Below, one piece after another: positions 13,491-63,176 of a DNA stretch of 64,000 nucleotides. How positions within the stretch are numbered: position 1 is the stretch's first letter; each line of letters begins with the position of its first letter. A model generated the notes under the pieces. It ran no database searches, was not told the origin of the DNA, and saw nothing but the letters and a program-made list of their open reading frames with translations. Position numbers and translations under genes: made by a program. This stretch comes from Alcanivoracaceae bacterium (GTDB lineage: Bacteria > Pseudomonadota > Gammaproteobacteria > Xanthomonadales > Marinicellaceae). The stretch is taken from contig JADGEI010000002.1 in the NCBI GenBank assembly GCA_016744455.1, positions 124,001-188,000 of the forward strand, given 5' to 3'.

Positions 13491-15176
13491 TTATGATGCC
13501 GCATCAATCCTTTTGGTAATAATCCATTGTTGTAAAAGTGAAAGGGAACTATTTACTGCCCAATATAAGACCAAACCTGATTGAAAAAATGCAAACATAA
13601 TAGAAAAACCTATTGGCATAAACTTCATAATTTTAGCCTGCATAGGATCCATTCCTGGTGTTGGAGATAGTTTTTGTGTCATAAACATGGCTGCTGCATT
13701 TATTGCCGGTAAAATAAAATAAGGATCAGGAGTACTTAAATCTTGCAACCACAACATAAAAGGAGCATGACGAAGTTCAACAGATTCCATTAGTACCCAA
13801 TAAAGTGCTATAAAAACAGGGATTTGCACCAACATAGGCAAACAACCACCCATTGGGTTCACTTTTTCCTTTTTATACAAGTTCATCATTTCTTCATTGA
13901 ACTTTTGTTTGTTTTCTTTGTGCCTGGCTTTTAATGTTTGAATACGTGGTTGTAATTTTCGCATTCTTGCCATTGAGTTATATTGTTTTTCAGTCAACTT
14001 AAAGAATAACAATTTAATTAATATCGTTAATAGAATAATTGACCAGCCCCAGTTACCTACTACTGAATGGATTTTATTTAACACCCAAAACAATGGTTTC
14101 GCAATGGCTGTAAATATTCCATAATCAACTGTCAACCCTAATCCTGCCGTTATTTTTGGCAAATTTTCTTGCTCTTTAGGCCCAACATAAAGCTGACTTG
14201 CTAATTGTGTTGTGTCACCTGCTTTTACAGTTGAAAAATCTGATGTTGCTCGAATTAAATAGGGTGCAACTGAGTTTGGAATATATTTACTAAGAATTGT
14301 CGATTTATTGTCTTTTAATATGAAACTTGAGAAAAAGTAGTGTTGGTCCATGGCTATCCAGCCTTCGCTTTCAATACTTAAATTAATTTTATCCTCTTGA
14401 AAATCATCAAAATCTAATTGTACATACCCTTCCTTAGGTTCAAAATATGAAGCTCCTTTAAATGACATCCTATCTGTATCAGTAAATGATGGCTCGTAAT
14501 TTTTCCAAGCATTTGTTCGTTGTAATTGTCGATATTGTTGTCCCTGCCACAAAGAACTCGAATTGTTTTTAATAGTATCAACCATATCTATTAGATAGGA
14601 GTTGGCATTAATTTTATATGTTTTAGTTAATTGAATACCGTCCTTTTCTATACTTAATCGAATATCAGTTGTACCTGATGTTATAGTATATTGATCTTGT
14701 TCTGATTTAAATCTTTCTGTATGAACAAAGCTTTGTTGCTGGCTTAACAAGCCAGATTGTGCAAAATATGCCTTTCCTGGTTGTTGATTAAATAAAACTA
14801 TGTTTTCTGAAGCATGCTTTTTTATTGGAAACTTTAATAATTCAGCATAGACGACTGATCCACCTATTTTATCTATTTTTAGTTTCAATACATTCGTTGT
14901 GATTGTAATAAGTTCACCAGATAGTCTGCTTTGTACCGTGCTTTCCATTGGTTGCTTCTGACCCAAAGTCGAAATCTCTGGAACATCATTAACTGTAGTA
15001 ACGCTTGATTGTACTTCTGGAATTGATGCATCTTGTGAAGTTTGACTTAATTCAGCTTGTGATTTATTCGTCTTGTTTTCTATAGGTTTCGGGCCATAGT
15101 CTTTTTGCCATTCGACATATAGCAAAAAACCTAAGAAAATTAATGCTATTAACAACATGTTTTTTGGGTTGTTCAT
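13491..15176 (-). CDS. yidC: Membrane protein insertase YidC
   Basis: VVGNWGWSIILLTILIKLLFFKLTEKQYNSMARMRKLQPR...NPMGGCLPMLVQIPVFIALYW. Confidence 0.97.
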   Translation of the reverse strand: MNNPKNMLLIALIFLGFLLYVEWQKDYGPKPIENKTNKSQAELSQTSQDASIPEVQSSVTTVNDVPEISTLGQKQPMESTVQSRLSGELITITTNVLKLKIDKIGGSVVYAELLKFPIKKHASENIVLFNQQPGKAYFAQSGLLSQQQSFVHTERFKSEQDQYTITSGTTDIRLSIEKDGIQLTKTYKINANSYLIDMVDTIKNNSSSLWQGQQYRQLQRTNAWKNYEPSFTDTDRMSFKGASYFEPKEGYVQLDFDDFQEDKINLSIESEGWIAMDQHYFFSSFILKDNKSTILSKYIPNSVAPYLIRATSDFSTVKAGDTTQLASQLYVGPKEQENLPKITAGLGLTVDYGIFTAIAKPLFWVLNKIHSVVGNWGWSIILLTILIKLLFFKLTEKQYNSMARMRKLQPRIQTLKARHKENKQKFNEEMMNLYKKEKVNPMGGCLPMLVQIPVFIALYWVLMESVELRHAPFMLWLQDLSTPDPYFILPAINAAAMFMTQKLSPTPGMDPMQAKIMKFMPIGFSIMFAFFQSGLVLYWAVNSSLSLLQQWIITKRIDAAS

Positions 15177-15535
15177 GAGTTTTTCCTAATTTGTTGGATT
15201 TTAGGTTGGGTTTTTTCCCACAATTGGTTCAAAGATAAGGTTAAATCCTTATTTGAGTTTTTTGTAATATTTGGACGTGCTAAAACCACAAAATCACAAT
15301 GTGATTCAAAAACAAATTTTCTAAATGTTTCTCGGCAAATACGTTTTATTCTATTGCGTTGAACAGCTCTTTTATCAACCTTTTTTGAAATAACCAACCC
15401 TAAGCGGCTGTAAGGAGTTGAGGTTTTATGAATTAAAATAAGAAAAAAAGCATTAGAAACTTTAACTGACTTAGAAAAAACACCATTAAAATCTGCCTTG
15501 TTCAGCAGTCGTTGATGTTTAGCTAAGCCAGTCAA
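15173..15535 (-). CDS. rnpA: Ribonuclease P protein component
   Basis: SRLGLVISKKVDKRAVQRNRIKRICRETFR. Confidence 0.95.
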   Translation of the reverse strand: MTGLAKHQRLLNKADFNGVFSKSVKVSNAFFLILIHKTSTPYSRLGLVISKKVDKRAVQRNRIKRICRETFRKFVFESHCDFVVLARPNITKNSNKDLTLSLNQLWEKTQPKIQQIRKNS

Positions 15536-15558
15536 TTTTTGTTTTTAACGGACAGAGA

Positions 15559-15699
15559 TTAATGTTTTACTGTTAATTGATGTCTGCCTTTTGCACGTCT
15601 TGCATTTATTACAGCGCGTCCGCCTTTTGTTTTCATTCTAGCACGAAACCCATGAGTTCTTGCGCGTTTTAAATTACTTGGTTGAAAAGTTCTTTTCAT
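15559..15699 (-). CDS. rpmH: 50S ribosomal protein L34 (46 aa, below ORF-track cutoff)
   Basis: Minus-strand translation [46 protein letters not shown]. Confidence 0.97.
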
Positions 15700-15910
15700 G
15701 TTACACCTTAGCTTCTTATGTTATTAATTTTGAATTCAATTTATCTTTTAAAAAACACTTGTTAAAGTGCTTGATTAAAAAAGGTCCGCTAGGATACTCA
15801 TTTTTAACAACTTTTTCAACTATTTTAGCCTTTTGTTAACTTAATTAGCTTATTCTTTTTACCTTTGCGTATAATATCAGCCTTTTTACAGGAATTGAAA
15901 CAAAAAACTT

Positions 15911-17215
15911 ATGCTTTGGGAAAAATGCCTTAACCGTTTAACATCAGAAATTGATAAACAAATTATTGATATTTGGTTAAAACCTCTACAGGTAAAACAA
16001 ACAAATAACAACTTAACAATTATCGCACCTAATTCACTAATTGTTGACAAAATAAAATCAGAGTTTTTATCCCTAATAACCCTTGCTTTAAACGATATTA
16101 CTCAATCCGACATTACTGTAAATATATCTTTACCCCAACAAACACCTCAAAAACAACAAATACCTCTTAGCCACTCTATCGATACATCATCAATTCCATC
16201 AAATTTAAATGTTAAATTTACATTCGAAAGTTTCGTAGAAGGCAATTCTAACTCTATCGCGAAAGCTGCTGCCTTACAAGTTGCTCAAGAGTCTCTAACA
16301 CAATTTAACCCATTGATAATTTATGGTAGTACAGGACTAGGGAAAACTCATTTGTTGCACGCCATTGGTAATAAAATTTTACAAGATGATTCAAACGCCT
16401 CTGTTACTTATGTTCATTCAGAACAATTTGTAAACAATATGATTTATGCTTTAGGTAATAAGTCAATATCTGAATTTAAAAAACAATACCGTTCTGTAAC
16501 TGCCTTATTAATTGATGATATTCAGTTTTTTGCTGGTAAAAATCGTTCACAAGAAGAGTTTTTTCACACATTTAATACATTACTCGAGTGTAATCAACGT
16601 GTAATAATTACAAGTGATCGTTTTCCTAAAGAAGTAAATGGCCTAGAACCACGATTAAAGTCACGATTAGGTTGGGGCTTAAGTGTTCCTATTGACCCAC
16701 CTGAATTTGAAACACGTGTTGCTATTTTAAAGAATAAAGCTATTCAACAAGGTTTTATATTAGCTGATGATGTTGCTTTTATTCTTGCAGAAAAAATAAA
16801 ATCAAACGTTAGAGAATTGGAAGGAGCCCTTAATACATTATGGGCAAAAGCACATTTTAAGAAAACTGATATTACCTTAGATTTTGCAAAACAAGAATTA
16901 AAAGAACTTTTTAATATCCATTCAAGGCATATTTCAATTGAAAAGATACAAAAACAAGTTGTAAACTACTATAATATAAGATTATCAGATTTGTTATCTA
17001 AAAAAAGAACAAGATCTTTAGTTAGGCCACGACAAATGGCTATGTATTTATCTAAAGAGCTAACCGATAAAAGTTTACCAGAAATAGGTGAGCAATTCGG
17101 TGGTCGTGATCACACAACTGTTTTATATGCACATAAAAAAGTTGTTTTGTTGTTTGAAGAAAACCCTGAATTTTTGGAAGATAAACAAAAACTAATAAAT
17201 TTATTAACAACGTAA
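15911..17215 (+). CDS. dnaA: Chromosomal replication initiator protein DnaA
   Basis: NPLIIYGSTGLGKTHLLHAIGN...LLIDDIQFFAGK...GGRDHTTVLYAHKKV. Confidence 0.98.
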   Translation: MLWEKCLNRLTSEIDKQIIDIWLKPLQVKQTNNNLTIIAPNSLIVDKIKSEFLSLITLALNDITQSDITVNISLPQQTPQKQQIPLSHSIDTSSIPSNLNVKFTFESFVEGNSNSIAKAAALQVAQESLTQFNPLIIYGSTGLGKTHLLHAIGNKILQDDSNASVTYVHSEQFVNNMIYALGNKSISEFKKQYRSVTALLIDDIQFFAGKNRSQEEFFHTFNTLLECNQRVIITSDRFPKEVNGLEPRLKSRLGWGLSVPIDPPEFETRVAILKNKAIQQGFILADDVAFILAEKIKSNVRELEGALNTLWAKAHFKKTDITLDFAKQELKELFNIHSRHISIEKIQKQVVNYYNIRLSDLLSKKRTRSLVRPRQMAMYLSKELTDKSLPEIGEQFGGRDHTTVLYAHKKVVLLFEENPEFLEDKQKLINLLTT

Positions 17216-31217: not shown

Positions 31218-34200
31218 ATGTGTTGTCATATAAGGTTTAAACCACTAGTAAGCTTGTTTTTATATCAATTTTTGATGGTTGTACATGCCACAGAAATGGT
31301 AACAATAACAGCCCCTAAAAACTTTGATCAAGCAAGGAATGATGTAACCTTGTTACATGAATATGGAAGTTTTAATTTATACAAGATTCCAAAAAGCAAC
31401 TACTCTTCTCTTCAGTCAGAAGTGAAAAATCAAACAAAGAAAATAAACCCTAAAATAGAGTTCGATGCACTAGCATATGACCCTACAAAGGACTTTGTGC
31501 ATATTCCGTTACAATTCCAGATTAATGAGAATCAAGTTAATGAAGCAAGTATACATTTGGTGCGTTTTGTTGGCCCAATAAAACAACAATGGCTTGATGT
31601 TTTAGAAAAAACCGGGGCAAAACTTATACAATATGTAAGAAACAATGCCTATCTTGTTTGGGCAGATAAGGACTCACGTTCAGCCATTAAAGCGCTATCA
31701 GAAGAAGGAAGTATAATTAATGCTGAGGGGCTATATCAGCCTTTTTTAAAACAAGGTGCAACCATATCTTCGCGATTATTGAGTGAAGACTTAAATGCAG
31801 TTGAAAAAATACGGATATCTTTTCAATTAGTTGATCACCCAGCTATTGATAAAAGCAAACAAGTTATTGAGTCATTGTCTCTAGATGTTATATCACCATG
31901 GACCAGGGTTTTGAGCTACCATAACATAACCGTTGTGGTTTTTGCTAAAGATATAGAAACTATTGTAAAGAGGCATGATGTTTATTCTGCACTAGAGTAT
32001 TTTGATCGAGAGTTAACAGATGAGGTACAAGGCCAAATTATTGCAGGTAATTTAAATGTAGGAAATACTGGGCCATCAGGAACGGGGTATTTGCCATGGT
32101 TACTTTCTAAGGGTTTTAGTACTAATCAAAATGATTACCCCATCGTTGATGTGGTAGATGATGGCATAGGTAATGGTTCGATAGTTAATGGCGCGGGAGA
32201 TGATACATTAACCGTTTTACGAGACGGAGTTACAACAAGGTTAGACCATGTAGACAACTGCACATCAGATGCAACAGGAGAAGGGTTAGATGGACACGGC
32301 CATATTAATATTAATATCGTTGGTGGTTATGATCAAAGGTCAGGGTTTCCTTTCAGAGACCCGAATGGTTACCAAAGAGGCCAAGGAATAAACCCTTATG
32401 GGCGTTTAGCTGGAACAAGAATTTTTGATACTGTTGGCTTTGATTTGTCTAGTTGTGGTGGAGCTGATAGTGATCTAATCAAGTCTCAACAAGACAATGG
32501 AAGTTTAATTTCAAGTAATTCATGGGGCTGTGGTGGTTGTGCAGGCTCTTATGATAGCTCATCTCAAGCATTTGATGTTGGTGTACGAGACGCAGATTTA
32601 ACTGAAGCTGGAAACCAGCAAATGATAATGCTTTTTGCAGCAGGCAATGATGGCAGTGGTGCGACAACAATAGGTACACCAGGTAATGGTAAAAATATGA
32701 TCACTGTTGGCGCATCAGAAAATAATCGGCCAACGGATGAAGATGGAAACTGGACTGATGGTTGTGGTATTGACCCAACAGGTGCCAATAGTGCAATGGA
32801 TGTAATTGGTTTTTCATCAAGAGGCCCTGCGCCAGGCGGTAGAACTAAGCCAGAAATAATAGCACCAGGGACCCATATTCAAGGAACAGCAAGTACAAAC
32901 GGGGGTTATACAGGAGGGGGCGTTTGCGATCAATTCCGCCCATCGGGGCAAACAGTTTTTGCCTCATCATCAGGAACATCTCACTCAACTCCAGCGGCTG
33001 CAGGAGTTGCATCATTGTATTATTACTGGTTGCAAAACACACATGGTCAAGCAAATCCGACGCCTTCGTTGATGAAAGCTTATATGATAGCTCACCCAAC
33101 ATACCTAACTGGAGTGAGTGCAAATGATGATTTGCCAAGTAATAGTCAAGGTTATGGTATGCCGAATATGGAACTAGCTTTTAATAATGAAGCTAGAGTA
33201 ATTGAGAATGAAGTAACAACATTTGATAACACAGGAGAAACATGGACATGGAGTGGTTCAGTGGCAAACACAGGAGAACCCATAAGGTTGGTTTTGGCCT
33301 ACACTGATGCAGCGGGAGCAACAGGAACAAGCCCGGAAGTTAATAATCTAAACTTAACTGCGATAATAGATGGCAACACTTATGTGGGCAACAACTTTTC
33401 AGGTGCATTTAGTGTTTTAGGAGGGGCTGCAGATGCAGATAATAACTATGAGGCTATTTTCTTGCCAGCAGGGACATCAGGAACTATTGATATAACAGTA
33501 ACAGCAGCTAATATCTCAGGTGATGGTGTACCTAATTCAGGAGATGGAACGGATCAAGATTTCTCAATAGTTTGTTATAACTGTTCACAACAACCAGATT
33601 ATAACCTCAATATCGTTGAGCCTAGTATTAATGTTTGTGTTGACCCTGGCCCAATATTGGCTCCTAACGTAACGATAAATACTACATCTGTTTTGGGGTT
33701 CTCAACACCAATAAATTTGGGTTTTAATCCTCTATTACCTACTGGTTTTAGCGCTTCATTTTCATTAAACCCTGTCGTGCCAGGAAGCAGTTCATCTTTA
33801 GGGTTAACAGTGGATAGTTCCGCAAGTGTTGGCACACATAATATAATAGTAGAGGGCAATGCATCTGGCAATACAAAGCAAGACTCCTTTGATGTTGTTG
33901 TTTCTTTTCCTGTAGCCTCATCTCCAACATTAACTAACCCTTTTGATGGGGAAACAGGGGTGGTTATACAACCTACATTCAATTGGGGAGCGATTAGTGG
34001 AGCATTAAGTTATGATATTGATATTGCTACAGATGCAGCGTTTATCACAATTATCGATACAGCAACAACCCCATCCAACAATTATACAACGGCTTTAAGT
34101 TTAAATGCGTCAACCCAATATTTTTGGCGAGTTAGAGCAAATAACAACTGTGGAAACGGTAACTATTCAAACACTTCTTCGTTTACTACTGCCAATATTG

Positions 34201-37200
34201 TCAATGTAGAATTATGCAGTACACCAGGAGCAAATATACCAGACAATAATGTTGCTGGTTTAAATGATACAATTATTTTCCCACAAGATATTACAGTAAC
34301 AGATGTTGATATTAAGATTGACATTAGCCATACATGGGTTTCGGATTTATCTTTAACGGTTACAAATAATGGTACAACCAGCACAACTACAATTATCGAT
34401 AGGCCAAACAACTGTAGCAGTGATGATATAGATACAACCATTGATGACGACAATGGAACGCCTGTTGAAAACGAATGCAGCGTAACACCGCCAGCTATTG
34501 GTGCTGGGCCCTTTACGCCAAACAACCCATTAAGTGTATTTGATGGTGAAGCAGCAATGAACAACTGGACATTAAATGTACGCGATCACGCAAATCAAGA
34601 TACGGGTACTTTAAATGAATGGTGTATCGTTGTTACAGGCACTCCTATTTTACCAACGCCAGATATTAACTTTAGTGGATCCAATTTATCACAAGATGTT
34701 TGTCTAGACCCGGGACCTACGTCCATTACACCTGTTACCCTAAACGTAACATCGTTAAACAATTACAACAATCCGATTACACTAGCCTTTAATCCTGTTC
34801 TTCCAACAGGAATTAGTGGTAACTTTAGTAACAATAGTTTTATTCCTGCAGTAGCTCCGGGAACAGATTCGTTGTTAAACATGATGGTTACAAGTGGTGC
34901 TACATCAGGAATTAATACTGTAACAATAGAGGCATCAGGAGCTGCTATTGCAACCCAAAGCGTGGATTTGGATTTAAATGTGGTTTTTGCCTTAGCTGCA
35001 GACCCCAGTATTTCAACGCCAACAAGTGGAACTACCGGTGTTGCAATTAATACAACATTAAACTGGTTAGCAGTTAGTGGTGCTACAAGTTACGATATCG
35101 ATGTCGCGACTGACTCAGCTTTTACTACAATTGTTGCATCTACAACAACAGCATCGACTAATTACACACCCGGTAGCTTGGTAAATGGAACCGTGTACTA
35201 TTGGCGGGTACGTGCAAGTAATTTGTGTGGTGATAGTGGTTACATAATAAGTGCATTTGAAACCATAGGAGGAAGTGGAAGCTCTACAAGCACAACATGT
35301 AGTAATCCGGCATTGGCTATTCCTGATGCAACTCCTGCTGGAACAACAGACACACTTAATATTGCCTCTGGTGGCACGATAACAGACATAGATATAAGCT
35401 TAGACGTAACTCATTCTTGGGTTGGAGACCTGGTTGCAAATGTGTCAAGACCACTAGGTACGGCGGTTACTATATTAGAAAGGCCAGGCATACCGCCAGG
35501 TAATTTTGGATGTGGCGGTGACAATATTGATACAATAATTGATGATGGCTCAGGAGTTCCCGTAGAAGGAGTTTGTGCTGGCGGAAACCCAACAATTGGG
35601 ACAGGACCATTCTCTCCGAATAACGCTTTATCTGCATTTAATACAGAAATATCAAATGGAGATTGGGTAATTACAATTTCGGATAATGCAGGTGGTGATA
35701 CAGGAACATTAAATGAATGGTGTGTTATTGCAACAGTCGACACAGGTTCTTCCTTGGCACCAGCAGATTACAGCGACTTAGATAGTTCATATGGAGTTGC
35801 GAAACATGAAGGAGGTGGTGTTTCTAGATTGGGCAATAATTGGACAGCGGATAGTGGTTTTGCTCAAGATGCAGATACAACAGACGATGATGGTATAACA
35901 GCATCTGGCATGTGGTTGCCAGGTAGCACCACAGCACAACTTAGTGTTGAATCTACCGGAGGTTATTTGGCTTGTTGGTTTGATTGGAATAACGATGGTA
36001 CCTTTGCTATTGGAGAAAAAAGTGTTGCTCAGGCTATTGCATCACCAGGCCCCGTAGTTATTCCGGTTACAATTCCTGTTGGAAGTACATTTGGTAATAC
36101 GGGTGATGATTTTCTTGAAAGTAGGTGCCGTTTTTACAGTGCAGAACCCTCAAGAGGGACTGAAATAGCAACAGGAACAACAGGTTCTGGAGAAGTTGAA
36201 GATTACCGTTTTTTAGCCAATGATTTGACACCAGTTACGCTGGCTTTTTCGCAAAGCAGTAAACGTGGATCAAGCTTTAGTTTAGAATGGTCAACCACAA
36301 CAGAAGCGGGAACTGTTGCTTTTAATGTCCATGGTTTAATCAATAATGTTTGGAAAAAATTAAACAACATTCCTATTTCAGCAAAAGGAACTAATTCAAC
36401 GTTACCAAACCATTACAATTTTCAAGTAAACAGTAATCAAATAACACTGTATAAAATAGAAGAGTTAACAACTCAAGGATTGTCACGCATGTATGGGCCC
36501 TATGGAGCAGACCTAACTTACGGTAAATACCCTGTTGTTGAGAACATAAATTGGCAACAGGTTAAAAACCACTCAACTCAAAGCTTACAAACCAGACAAA
36601 ACGCAATGAGGGGAAGTTTTGACTTTATAAAAGTTAAGGTTTCAAAAACAGGTTTACATCGTATAAGTTATGAACAGCTATTGACTTTAGGTGTTGATTG
36701 GCAAGGCTATAGTTCAGCTGAAATTGCCATAGAGTTTGAAAATACAGCGGTTGCACGTTACATATCTGCTGACACCTTTGCACCAGGCGTGTACATTGAG
36801 TTTGTTGGTAAGGCTGCTCAAACACTATATACCGATACAAATATCTACCAATTGTCGTTAAAACCAACAGCTGTTAAAGTTGCACAAGTCTTTACTCATA
36901 ACGGATTTATAATCGATGAAAATGCTTATCACATGGCAGAGGCTAAAATAGACGGTGATAACGAGTACAGTTTTGCTTCCCCAGCACAAAGTCCTTGGTT
37001 CTATCAAAAAATGTTAGCTTATACAGATGAAAAAAGATGGCAGTTTCCTTTAGCCACACCTAATTTATTGAATAATGGTACTGAACCTTTGTTTGATTAT
37101 CGAGCTTGGGGTGGAACGGATTGGCCACAAGCCACAGTGGATCACCACATCCAAATAGAAATTAATGAACAACAACTTATAGATAGTTATGGTAATGGTA

Positions 37201-38723
37201 CACAGATATTTGAAGCTAGCACAGCATTGCCAGAAAACTTATTACAACAACAAAATATTGTTACTGTGATACTTCCTGCGGATACCGGTGTTGACCATGA
37301 CTTAATACAACTGGATAGTTTGAGAGTTAGCTACCCTTCAGAAATAGTTGTACAAAATGGGCAATTACAATTTATCCCTAATGTGACTACAGCAGATTTA
37401 GACTTAATTTATAGTAATGGTTTTGAGTTAGTCAATACTCAAAAAACGCAAACTAAAACCACAAATGGTACTACTGGTTTTGTTGTTTCTGGTTTGAGCC
37501 AGGAAAATATCAGTGTTTATGTGCAAGATAATGGTACGTTAAATATGTTTGAAAACATAAACCCTTATCCTGATAATGGTGGCTTTGCAGTAGAGTTGCC
37601 ACATATAAATGGTGAATACTATATTTCAGAAAACACTAGTATTGAGTTGCCAAATATAGAGTTAGCAACAACCAACCAACTAGAACGACAAGGGTCTTAT
37701 GATTACTTAATGATTGCTCACCCTGATTTTGAAGCAACGTTAAATCAATTAGCAAGTTACCATCAATCAAATGGCTTGTCGGTTTTGGTGACTAACACTG
37801 ATGATATTTATGCCAACTATTCACATCACCGAATAAGCGCACAGGCTATAAAGAGCTATATTGAAGACGTTAGTGTTCAAATGGGTATACAGGCAGTATT
37901 GCTGGTTGGGGGAGATAGTTATGATTACATGAACAACCTAAATATTGGCTCAATTAGCCATATTCCAACCCTTTATCACCCTGTTGACAGTTTGGTAAAA
38001 TTTGCTCCAGTTGACCCCTTATATGTTGATATTAACAATGACTTAGTGCCTGATTTATCATTAGGTAGGTTGCCAGTAAGAACAAATCAAGAGTTACAAA
38101 ATAGTATAGATAAGATGGTGTCTTTTGCTAATAGAGACTATAATGAAACAGCACTTTTTGCGACAGATAGAGGGTTGTCTTTTGATGAGTTTTCCGATCA
38201 AATAATCAGCACAATTCCAGAAAGTTGGTTTGTTGAAACAGCCTATATCAATCAATTAGAAATTAACGGTGCTCAACAGGCAATTAAAAACGGCATAGAA
38301 AATGGAACAACTTTTACAAGTTTCTTTGGCCACTCAGGCCCTGGATCTTGGTCATTTGAGCGTCTTTTTGACACCGATGATGTTCTAGCTCTAAATAATA
38401 GCAACAAACCAACGGTTGTTAATCAGTTTGGTTGTTGGAACACATATTATGTAACCCCGATGTTTGACACCATGTCACATCGCTTTATGCAACTAGAAAA
38501 TAAAGGAGCGGTAGCTGTTATGGGAGCTAGCACTCTAACTGAAAGTTTCCATGAATTAGAGCTGGGTATTCGTTTAATTCCAAATTTAACTCATAATAAT
38601 ATGACAATTGGAGAGGCCATACTCCAAGCCAAACAAAACTTAGCAGTAAGTCACCCTGACTATCTAGATGTGATTTTAGGCTGGACCTTATTGGGTGACC
38701 CGATGATAGAGGTCAACAATTAA
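31218..38723 (+). CDS. Giant secreted dual-protease: S8 subtilisin domain, duplicated FN3-like/P-domain module, GEVED domain and C25 gingipain-like domain
   Basis: S8: VVDDG / GLDGHGHI / SSSGTSHSTPAAAG. Two P-domains (DISHTWVSDLSLTV, DVTHSWVGDLVANV). GEVED-like region (LACWFDWNNDGTF...GEVEDYRF). C25: FFGHSGPGSW and NQFGCWNTYY, LLGDPMIEV. Confidence 0.9.
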   Translation: MCCHIRFKPLVSLFLYQFLMVVHATEMVTITAPKNFDQARNDVTLLHEYGSFNLYKIPKSNYSSLQSEVKNQTKKINPKIEFDALAYDPTKDFVHIPLQFQINENQVNEASIHLVRFVGPIKQQWLDVLEKTGAKLIQYVRNNAYLVWADKDSRSAIKALSEEGSIINAEGLYQPFLKQGATISSRLLSEDLNAVEKIRISFQLVDHPAIDKSKQVIESLSLDVISPWTRVLSYHNITVVVFAKDIETIVKRHDVYSALEYFDRELTDEVQGQIIAGNLNVGNTGPSGTGYLPWLLSKGFSTNQNDYPIVDVVDDGIGNGSIVNGAGDDTLTVLRDGVTTRLDHVDNCTSDATGEGLDGHGHININIVGGYDQRSGFPFRDPNGYQRGQGINPYGRLAGTRIFDTVGFDLSSCGGADSDLIKSQQDNGSLISSNSWGCGGCAGSYDSSSQAFDVGVRDADLTEAGNQQMIMLFAAGNDGSGATTIGTPGNGKNMITVGASENNRPTDEDGNWTDGCGIDPTGANSAMDVIGFSSRGPAPGGRTKPEIIAPGTHIQGTASTNGGYTGGGVCDQFRPSGQTVFASSSGTSHSTPAAAGVASLYYYWLQNTHGQANPTPSLMKAYMIAHPTYLTGVSANDDLPSNSQGYGMPNMELAFNNEARVIENEVTTFDNTGETWTWSGSVANTGEPIRLVLAYTDAAGATGTSPEVNNLNLTAIIDGNTYVGNNFSGAFSVLGGAADADNNYEAIFLPAGTSGTIDITVTAANISGDGVPNSGDGTDQDFSIVCYNCSQQPDYNLNIVEPSINVCVDPGPILAPNVTINTTSVLGFSTPINLGFNPLLPTGFSASFSLNPVVPGSSSSLGLTVDSSASVGTHNIIVEGNASGNTKQDSFDVVVSFPVASSPTLTNPFDGETGVVIQPTFNWGAISGALSYDIDIATDAAFITIIDTATTPSNNYTTALSLNASTQYFWRVRANNNCGNGNYSNTSSFTTANIVNVELCSTPGANIPDNNVAGLNDTIIFPQDITVTDVDIKIDISHTWVSDLSLTVTNNGTTSTTTIIDRPNNCSSDDIDTTIDDDNGTPVENECSVTPPAIGAGPFTPNNPLSVFDGEAAMNNWTLNVRDHANQDTGTLNEWCIVVTGTPILPTPDINFSGSNLSQDVCLDPGPTSITPVTLNVTSLNNYNNPITLAFNPVLPTGISGNFSNNSFIPAVAPGTDSLLNMMVTSGATSGINTVTIEASGAAIATQSVDLDLNVVFALAADPSISTPTSGTTGVAINTTLNWLAVSGATSYDIDVATDSAFTTIVASTTTASTNYTPGSLVNGTVYYWRVRASNLCGDSGYIISAFETIGGSGSSTSTTCSNPALAIPDATPAGTTDTLNIASGGTITDIDISLDVTHSWVGDLVANVSRPLGTAVTILERPGIPPGNFGCGGDNIDTIIDDGSGVPVEGVCAGGNPTIGTGPFSPNNALSAFNTEISNGDWVITISDNAGGDTGTLNEWCVIATVDTGSSLAPADYSDLDSSYGVAKHEGGGVSRLGNNWTADSGFAQDADTTDDDGITASGMWLPGSTTAQLSVESTGGYLACWFDWNNDGTFAIGEKSVAQAIASPGPVVIPVTIPVGSTFGNTGDDFLESRCRFYSAEPSRGTEIATGTTGSGEVEDYRFLANDLTPVTLAFSQSSKRGSSFSLEWSTTTEAGTVAFNVHGLINNVWKKLNNIPISAKGTNSTLPNHYNFQVNSNQITLYKIEELTTQGLSRMYGPYGADLTYGKYPVVENINWQQVKNHSTQSLQTRQNAMRGSFDFIKVKVSKTGLHRISYEQLLTLGVDWQGYSSAEIAIEFENTAVARYISADTFAPGVYIEFVGKAAQTLYTDTNIYQLSLKPTAVKVAQVFTHNGFIIDENAYHMAEAKIDGDNEYSFASPAQSPWFYQKMLAYTDEKRWQFPLATPNLLNNGTEPLFDYRAWGGTDWPQATVDHHIQIEINEQQLIDSYGNGTQIFEASTALPENLLQQQNIVTVILPADTGVDHDLIQLDSLRVSYPSEIVVQNGQLQFIPNVTTADLDLIYSNGFELVNTQKTQTKTTNGTTGFVVSGLSQENISVYVQDNGTLNMFENINPYPDNGGFAVELPHINGEYYISENTSIELPNIELATTNQLERQGSYDYLMIAHPDFEATLNQLASYHQSNGLSVLVTNTDDIYANYSHHRISAQAIKSYIEDVSVQMGIQAVLLVGGDSYDYMNNLNIGSISHIPTLYHPVDSLVKFAPVDPLYVDINNDLVPDLSLGRLPVRTNQELQNSIDKMVSFANRDYNETALFATDRGLSFDEFSDQIISTIPESWFVETAYINQLEINGAQQAIKNGIENGTTFTSFFGHSGPGSWSFERLFDTDDVLALNNSNKPTVVNQFGCWNTYYVTPMFDTMSHRFMQLENKGAVAVMGASTLTESFHELELGIRLIPNLTHNNMTIGEAILQAKQNLAVSHPDYLDVILGWTLLGDPMIEVNN
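33594..35735 (+). repeat. Internal tandem duplication (two copies, ~1065 bp / 355 aa period) within the giant protease gene
   Basis: Copy 1 begins PDYNLNIVEPSINVCVDPGP, copy 2 PDINFSGSNLSQDVCLDPGP; FN3-like and P-domain parts align throughout. Confidence 0.85.
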
Positions 38724-60815: not shown

Positions 60816-63176
60816 TTATTCAAAACCATTAACAAAAATCACATCGGTAATGTCGCTTATTAATGGATCACTTAACGGTACGCCGGCAGGTGGATATTCC
60901 TGTCCATCAGTTAGATTATCACCATCAGAATCCGCTACAAGAATATTGGTACCCAAAATAATCTCCTGCCCATCAATCAGCCCATCGCCATCGCTGTCTT
61001 GGTTAAGGTAGACAAACCCAAGCATAACAGAATTTGGTGGTGCTGTATTGCTAGCTACCAGCTTATGATTAAGGTTATCTGTCTCATCACGGTAAAGTCT
61101 TGTTGCCCCAACACAGGCAACTGGAAAACATTGTGTAAAAGGCAAAATATAGCCTTCTATACCACCAAAGCTATAGCCTTCACTATGATAAAATTCAATT
61201 TCTGCATTACTTACAGCATATGTATCATTTCTGTTTCCTGAAACAGTTTTCTCCATTTTTCTTAGTGGTATTAAATTTTTTGTTCCAGAAAAAGGATTAT
61301 TATTTGTTGTAAATACATAAAATTGAGCTCTTGGAGGTGGAAATTGTACAGGCACATTTTGTAGATTGTGGTCATACCAAAAATCAGTAAATTCATTAAC
61401 TAAAGCTACATTGGTATCAGGAAGATAGAAACTGCCATTTTGTAGTAAAAAAGCCGTTGCCACTTGAGGAAAGGAGGTATAAACATGATTGTTCTGTGCA
61501 CTAGAGTGCATAACAAACATTGGTGTTAGCCTATTTTTCATTAATATACCATTAGATGTTCCTAACAATTTTTCCAAAGCCAATCTTGCATTTGGAAGAC
61601 CATATCCATAATGATTATCATGACCGGCACCACTTTGTGATAAGGTCGCTGTTGCATTTAGTACATTTGTGATACCGATTAAGGTACTTGGATTCCAGTC
61701 TCCATTTGGTAACAAGGGTTGAGTCGAGCGCATTAATTGCATAATGGCGGCTGTTTGAGGAGAAGACATTGATGTACCAGTACACAAACCATAACCATCA
61801 TTAGCTACACCATCACTTGCATCGGTACATCCAATAAATGAATTCCACTCTTCACCCGTGTAAAATAAAGAATGAACATCTTTGGCCTGAGTAACTACAT
61901 CGGTACGGCTACCTGCCAATAAAAAGCTGGATGTCGAACCACATTCAATATTGCTTGGGGCATACGGACATGTTGATGGGTCATTGTTGCTTGTCGGTCC
62001 ACCAGTGCCTGGGCTTTCATTCCAAAACAAACCATTGGCATCGGTACCACCAGCGGCAACAGCTCGGCTGTCATTTGCTGGGAATTGAATGTTTTGTCGG
62101 TTATTACCTGCCGATGTTACAAGCAATGTGTTTCTGTGATTGAGTAGGGTAAGGGCTTCGCAAAACACATAATTCCTATTCGATTGATCTATTGTATCGC
62201 AATAGTTTGCAACAGTGTTTTCAATTCCCCCACTAAAATTTATAACACCACTTCCCAATGAAGTCAAAATTTTGAATCCATCTGTTATATACTCTGGTAG
62301 TCGACTATCAGACGATAAAGACGTAAATAAAAACTCATCACCAAATGGTCTACAGGATCTATGACGGACATATTTCATCACAGATATACTACAGTTTTTA
62401 CAGATGCCATTTTCTGGAGAAACGTTGTTGTTGGCAGCCATAATTCCTGCAACATGAGTACCATGACCAACAAAAGAGGGGTTAGCAAAGCCAGGGTTTT
62501 CCGGATCTTCACAGTTTTGTTTAATGGGCACAATGGTTACAGGCTGTTTTTCATCGACATTAAAATCTCCTTCTGCCACATCATATTGGTTATACTGACC
62601 ATTCAACACATTGCCTCCAAGATAATTACCATTGTCATCAAAGGTCTTAAACGCAGGATGGTTTACCTCGATGCCCGTATCTGTCACCCCAAAATAACCT
62701 GAACCCTCTGACAACTCCCAAGCCGAAGGAATGCCCAAATCATTAAGGTAACTATTAGGAGTACCCCTGCTCAATCGATTGATAGTGTTATTAGGTAGGA
62801 CTGTAGATGGTGTAGAAAGCTGTGGAATAAATTGATTATTAATAAATAATGCCCCAACAATAAATGGATCAGCAGTTAAAGCCGCATCAACTTGCAGCTC
62901 ATTAATACTGTCGTCATAGTACAATACTAAATACCGATACAATCTGGATAACGTCCATTCGGGATGTTCACTGACAAAGTTGGCCAAATCACCTATAGGT
63001 CGTTCAGAAATAATATAATCGACACTGTCGGGGCGAAATTGGGTAAATGCTGTCAATAAAGGGATCGGTGGCGGAGGTGATTGGAATGACTCGGCAACCA
63101 CCATTGCTGGTGTTGGCGCCCCCTCATCGGCTGATAACAATATATGAAATACTTTTTCAGCCTGAACATTGCTCAT
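60816..63176 (-). CDS. S8 family serine peptidase with C-terminal calcium-type repeats and terminal IFVNGFE tail
   Basis: GVTDTGIEVNHPAF / GHGTHVAGIMAANN / CTGTSMSSPQTAAIMQL; DSDGDGLIDGQE...DSDGDNLTDGQE; ends DVIFVNGFE*. Confidence 0.92.
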   Translation of the reverse strand: MSNVQAEKVFHILLSADEGAPTPAMVVAESFQSPPPPIPLLTAFTQFRPDSVDYIISERPIGDLANFVSEHPEWTLSRLYRYLVLYYDDSINELQVDAALTADPFIVGALFINNQFIPQLSTPSTVLPNNTINRLSRGTPNSYLNDLGIPSAWELSEGSGYFGVTDTGIEVNHPAFKTFDDNGNYLGGNVLNGQYNQYDVAEGDFNVDEKQPVTIVPIKQNCEDPENPGFANPSFVGHGTHVAGIMAANNNVSPENGICKNCSISVMKYVRHRSCRPFGDEFLFTSLSSDSRLPEYITDGFKILTSLGSGVINFSGGIENTVANYCDTIDQSNRNYVFCEALTLLNHRNTLLVTSAGNNRQNIQFPANDSRAVAAGGTDANGLFWNESPGTGGPTSNNDPSTCPYAPSNIECGSTSSFLLAGSRTDVVTQAKDVHSLFYTGEEWNSFIGCTDASDGVANDGYGLCTGTSMSSPQTAAIMQLMRSTQPLLPNGDWNPSTLIGITNVLNATATLSQSGAGHDNHYGYGLPNARLALEKLLGTSNGILMKNRLTPMFVMHSSAQNNHVYTSFPQVATAFLLQNGSFYLPDTNVALVNEFTDFWYDHNLQNVPVQFPPPRAQFYVFTTNNNPFSGTKNLIPLRKMEKTVSGNRNDTYAVSNAEIEFYHSEGYSFGGIEGYILPFTQCFPVACVGATRLYRDETDNLNHKLVASNTAPPNSVMLGFVYLNQDSDGDGLIDGQEIILGTNILVADSDGDNLTDGQEYPPAGVPLSDPLISDITDVIFVNGFE

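Follow-up and report, generated by a model that had tools for sequence, protein, structure and literature searches.

The locus described here raises the question of whether two peptidases of unrelated families can reside on one polypeptide and, if so, where such a chain comes from and how it may work. The window, the whole 64,000-nucleotide stretch of DNA that was analysed, contains at positions 31,218 to 38,723 of its forward strand a single uninterrupted frame of 2501 codons, whose 2501-aa product, P0001, runs from an S8 peptidase domain to a C25 peptidase domain. An earlier note on this DNA had described S8, two P-domains, a GEVED region and C25 in one chain, and all of these were placed by Pfam above the curated cut-offs, including both peptidase domains in the profile search. 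A basic start followed by a hydrophobic core makes residues 1-24 a plausible Sec signal peptide (31,218-31,289, boundary approximate; this and all following features are on the + strand). It is followed by a subtilase pro-region of repeated beta-alpha units (residues 25-262; 31,290-32,003), which is conserved in stand-alone relatives and folded in the AlphaFold2 model. In the subtilase family, the combination of a signal peptide and a pro-region indicates export followed by the usual maturation. The Peptidase_S8 domain occupies residues 308-647 (32,139-33,158; PF00082, 1e-23, 84.5 bits against a cut-off of 21.8), and the alignment to known subtilases continues beyond it into a beta domain at about residues 665-817 (33,210-33,668). 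Two Ig/FN3/P modules follow, the first at residues 818-1140 (33,669-34,637) with the best P_proprotein match at 1028-1137 (34,299-34,628), and the second at 1146-1478 (34,653-35,651) with the other P-domain at about 1345-1470, where the limits come from comparisons. The remainder comprises GEVED (residues 1583-1664; 35,964-36,209; PF20009, 7e-12), a PorU-like N-terminal region of the tail (1802-2162; 36,621-37,703) with partial matches to the NCBIfam PorU and PorU2 models and a Foldseek match to PorU at 3e-28, and the Peptidase_C25 domain (2163-2498; 37,704-38,711; PF01364, 6e-62, 210.5 bits against a cut-off of 23).

Judged by alignment, both peptidase domains retain intact catalytic residues. 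The motifs quoted in the earlier note (DVVDDG, DGHGH, GTSHSTPAAAG, FFGHSGPGSW and NQFGCWNTYY) are exact. In the S8 domain, the catalytic Asp D314 (32,157-32,159), His H360 (32,295-32,297) and Ser S588 (32,979-32,981) and the oxyanion Asn N477 (32,646-32,648) match up with a relative bearing the canonical DTG/HGTH/GTS motifs and are invariant in 12 homologues, although the His motif DGHGH is unusual compared to KP-43 and SubHal. The C25 catalytic His H2372 (38,331-38,333) and Cys C2406 (38,433-38,435) are unchanged in 10 C25 tails and align with the His/Cys pair of gingipain R and PorU. At the position that we take to be the specificity Asp of gingipain R, P0001 also has Asp, and this residue is variable among the tails. 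The structure models are of unequal use: in the model of the head, the S8 core has very low confidence and is unusable for geometry, whereas the model of the tail (residue 1745 onwards) has a mean pLDDT of 80 and a pTM of 0.80. Foldseek aligned this tail model to PorU over 830 columns (3.3e-28) and to gingipain R at 1.8e-16.

Since both halves occur separately in relatives, a chain of this kind could reflect two neighbouring genes joined by an error of sequencing or assembly, a doubt that the earlier note had itself raised. This explanation has a negligible probability and was rejected because an independently assembled congener, G025, encodes the same chain. There, the same domain order is found in one 2139-aa chain without stops, which is 61 % identical to P0001 in the head and 53 % in the tail and lies beside the same upstream neighbours. 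A third copy is probably present in G027, since an S8 half, next to these neighbours, lies at the end of one contig and a C25 tail at the end of another. With two complete fusions and one probably split over contigs among the 11 genomes of the genus, the architecture is not common in related genomes. The note had also called the combination of S8 and C25 in one chain unusual, and this holds within the sample examined, where S8 was found on the same chain in two of 163 distinct C25 proteins (P0001 and its G025 counterpart, both complete chains), in a sample without Bacteroidota, the main home of C25. C25 proteins were drawn from the family, the order and the class, together with the 79 best loci of a collection with one genome per species; 98 of the sampled proteins have at least 1300 aa, and some chains are truncated at contig ends. 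The S8 detector was made from KP-43-like sequences, so that strongly divergent S8 domains may escape it. A search of the open-licence literature for the fusion or for the GFE peptide discussed below found nothing relevant. Two further C25 proteins from other Gammaproteobacteria (L235 and L236) reach 4496 and 4128 aa; in both, C25 again lies at the very C-terminal end and S8 is absent.

P0001 fuses two known modules, a KP-43-type subtilase head and a PorU-like gingipain tail. The S8 core and the following beta domain align with KP-43 and SubHal (PDB 1wmd, 5fax) at 1e-31 to 1e-33, but these chains have no C25, Ig/FN3/P or GEVED modules and no GFE peptide. Closer relatives of the head are stand-alone subtilases (e.g. 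L085, L086, L087), which are 52-55 % identical over about 790 aa. In contrast to P0001, the stand-alone subtilases of related genomes end soon past the Ig/FN3 region, with or without a P-domain, and carry no C25; that of G008, for instance, stops just beyond its Ig/FN3/P module. G021 and G028 have the same C25 tail at the same locus, next to a solute symporter gene and a gene of the NhaC type, but in opposite orientation and with a head unlike that of P0001. In these two genes (L026:3851-11395 and L028:4478-12589), the head has about 720 aa and no Pfam match. The two Ig/FN3/P modules of P0001 share 43 % identity. The first has counterparts in the stand-alone subtilases, and the second clusters with those in the tails of G021 and G028 with a support of 99/99 in a tree whose supports are partly weak. 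The subtilase part (pro-region, S8, beta domain and first Ig/FN3/P module) would have been joined in frame to a tail partner comprising an Ig/FN3/P module, GEVED, the PorU-like N-terminal region and C25.

The head tree and the tail tree agree. G029, which has no S8 head, is nested inside the fused clade (support 95/92), and its tail, 82 % identical to that of G025, directly follows its own signal peptide and has an intact C25 domain. The simplest reading of these trees is one fusion followed by one head loss in the G029 lineage. Two unrelated protease families would thus have been joined, would have stayed active-looking despite large divergence and would then have been separated in one lineage, and the head loss makes the contribution of each half testable through natural variants.

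Regarding the function, the reading that we favour with reasonable confidence is that of a Sec-exported dual protease, stemming from one in-frame fusion, whose peptidases work independently outside the cytoplasm and whose GFE loop serves as a recognition peptide. After Sec export, the pro-region would be removed, and S8 and C25 would then most likely act independently as peptidases on protein substrates, while the P, GEVED and Ig/FN3 modules could be stabilising or binding spacers. The earlier note had instead proposed a maturation relay, in which S8 cleaves the exported chain and thereby releases or activates the C25 tail. In favour of this idea, the two domains are separated by long spacers within a single chain, and both fused proteins retain the S8 and C25 catalytic residues. 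However, G029 has lost S8 inside the fused clade, yet its tail, preceded by a signal peptide of its own, remains intact, and tails of this type are joined to many other, unrelated heads. Both observations argue against a dependence of C25 on S8, and the proposed relay, not being supported, is considered improbable.

Another possibility is that the C25 tail is a PorU-like sorting or surface-attachment enzyme which places any head, with S8 as a mere passenger. PorU, the sortase of type IX secretion (PDB 6za2), resembles the tail along its whole length, and this tail type forms the very end of proteins whose heads vary widely. Nevertheless, P0001 falls far short of the NCBIfam equivalog cut-offs, reaching 120.4 of 420 bits for PorU and 104.2 of 450 bits for PorU2. 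Stand-alone subtilases are also retained without the tail. SprA of type IX secretion had no match in the own genome, in a search where the control genomes likewise gave no match, so that this point comes without a positive control. The sorting role is considered unlikely, though slightly less so than the relay, and independent peptidases remain the preferred reading. Unlike PorU, the tail of P0001 stops three residues after C25 and lacks a further C-terminal part. The gingipains RgpB and Kgp (PDB 1cvr, 4ief, 4rbm) have the C25 fold and the catalytic His/Cys pair in common with P0001, which differs from them in its N-terminal region, the absence of a C-terminal sorting domain and the S8 domain on the same chain. 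A relationship to the anti-phage peptidase IteS/IetS was rejected, with 31 of 900 bits over part of the S8 region only and partial PADLOC hits.

The remaining part of the favoured reading concerns the peptide DLIYSNGFE at residues 2062-2070 (37,401-37,427). In the alignment, it forms an inserted stretch that is absent from the tails of Chloroflexi, Acidobacteria and others, and in the tail model it lies in a disordered loop (pLDDT <50) inside a well-folded domain. At this position, 28 of the 96 tails from the order have a relaxed GFE motif, compared to none of 55 outside the order; as these sequences are related, the Fisher value exaggerates the difference. Control windows, taken from the head regions of proteins of the same order, gave 3/713 relaxed and 0/713 strict matches. 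Among the tails examined, the peptide thus appears restricted to this order, and one C25 tail subfamily has it in a different loop.

The same motif is found at protein ends. FxxGFE terminates 45-47 reading frames of G000, the genome of the window, compared to none for the reversed pattern, and genomes from other orders of the class have 0 to 2 C-terminal GFE motifs each, which is about background. Of the untruncated GFE-ending ORFs with at least 140 aa, 23/26 begin like a signal peptide according to a crude score, which is also passed by 42 % of other ORFs, and no NCBIfam model matches the GFE ends. One of the C-terminal motifs of G000 lies in the window itself at 60,816-60,836 on the - strand. 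Several stand-alone subtilases of related genomes also finish in a GFE-type motif, which P0001 carries internally.

These distributions suggest a putative role of the GFE peptide as a portable recognition tag, although it could serve another role. The loop of P0001 would display a peptide that many other exported proteins bear C-terminally, a place occupied here by the C25 fold. A more far-reaching proposal, which we put forward tentatively at somewhat less than even chances, is that the order uses a tag of approximately [D/E]-x-[I/V/L]-F-x-[N/D]-G-F-E, read by a step of export, anchoring or sorting that has yet to be described and working either C-terminally or from a surface loop, with the dual protease as a client that carries it in a C25-tail loop. 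The tail has in this way led to a short peptide with which about 45 proteins of one genome terminate and which is also inserted at two different C25-tail loops. Should this peptide prove to be a tag, an unknown protein-sorting step of these bacteria would be open to direct testing. C25 as the general enzyme for GFE ends was rejected in view of genus g3, where most genomes have such ends but no C25. Type II secretion was uninformative as a discriminator, with GspD in 59/61 genomes with and without GFE.

Two additional observations concern copies of these elements. Two stand-alone subtilases (L083:1438-3750 and L084:1165-3480) end in two consecutive GFE motifs, as if duplicated. On another contig of G000 (C22), two C25 genes of 752 aa each (L034:4699-6954 and 14184-16439) lie about 9.5 kb apart with equal scores and boundaries, which is likely a recent duplication, and both contain an internal GFE peptide.
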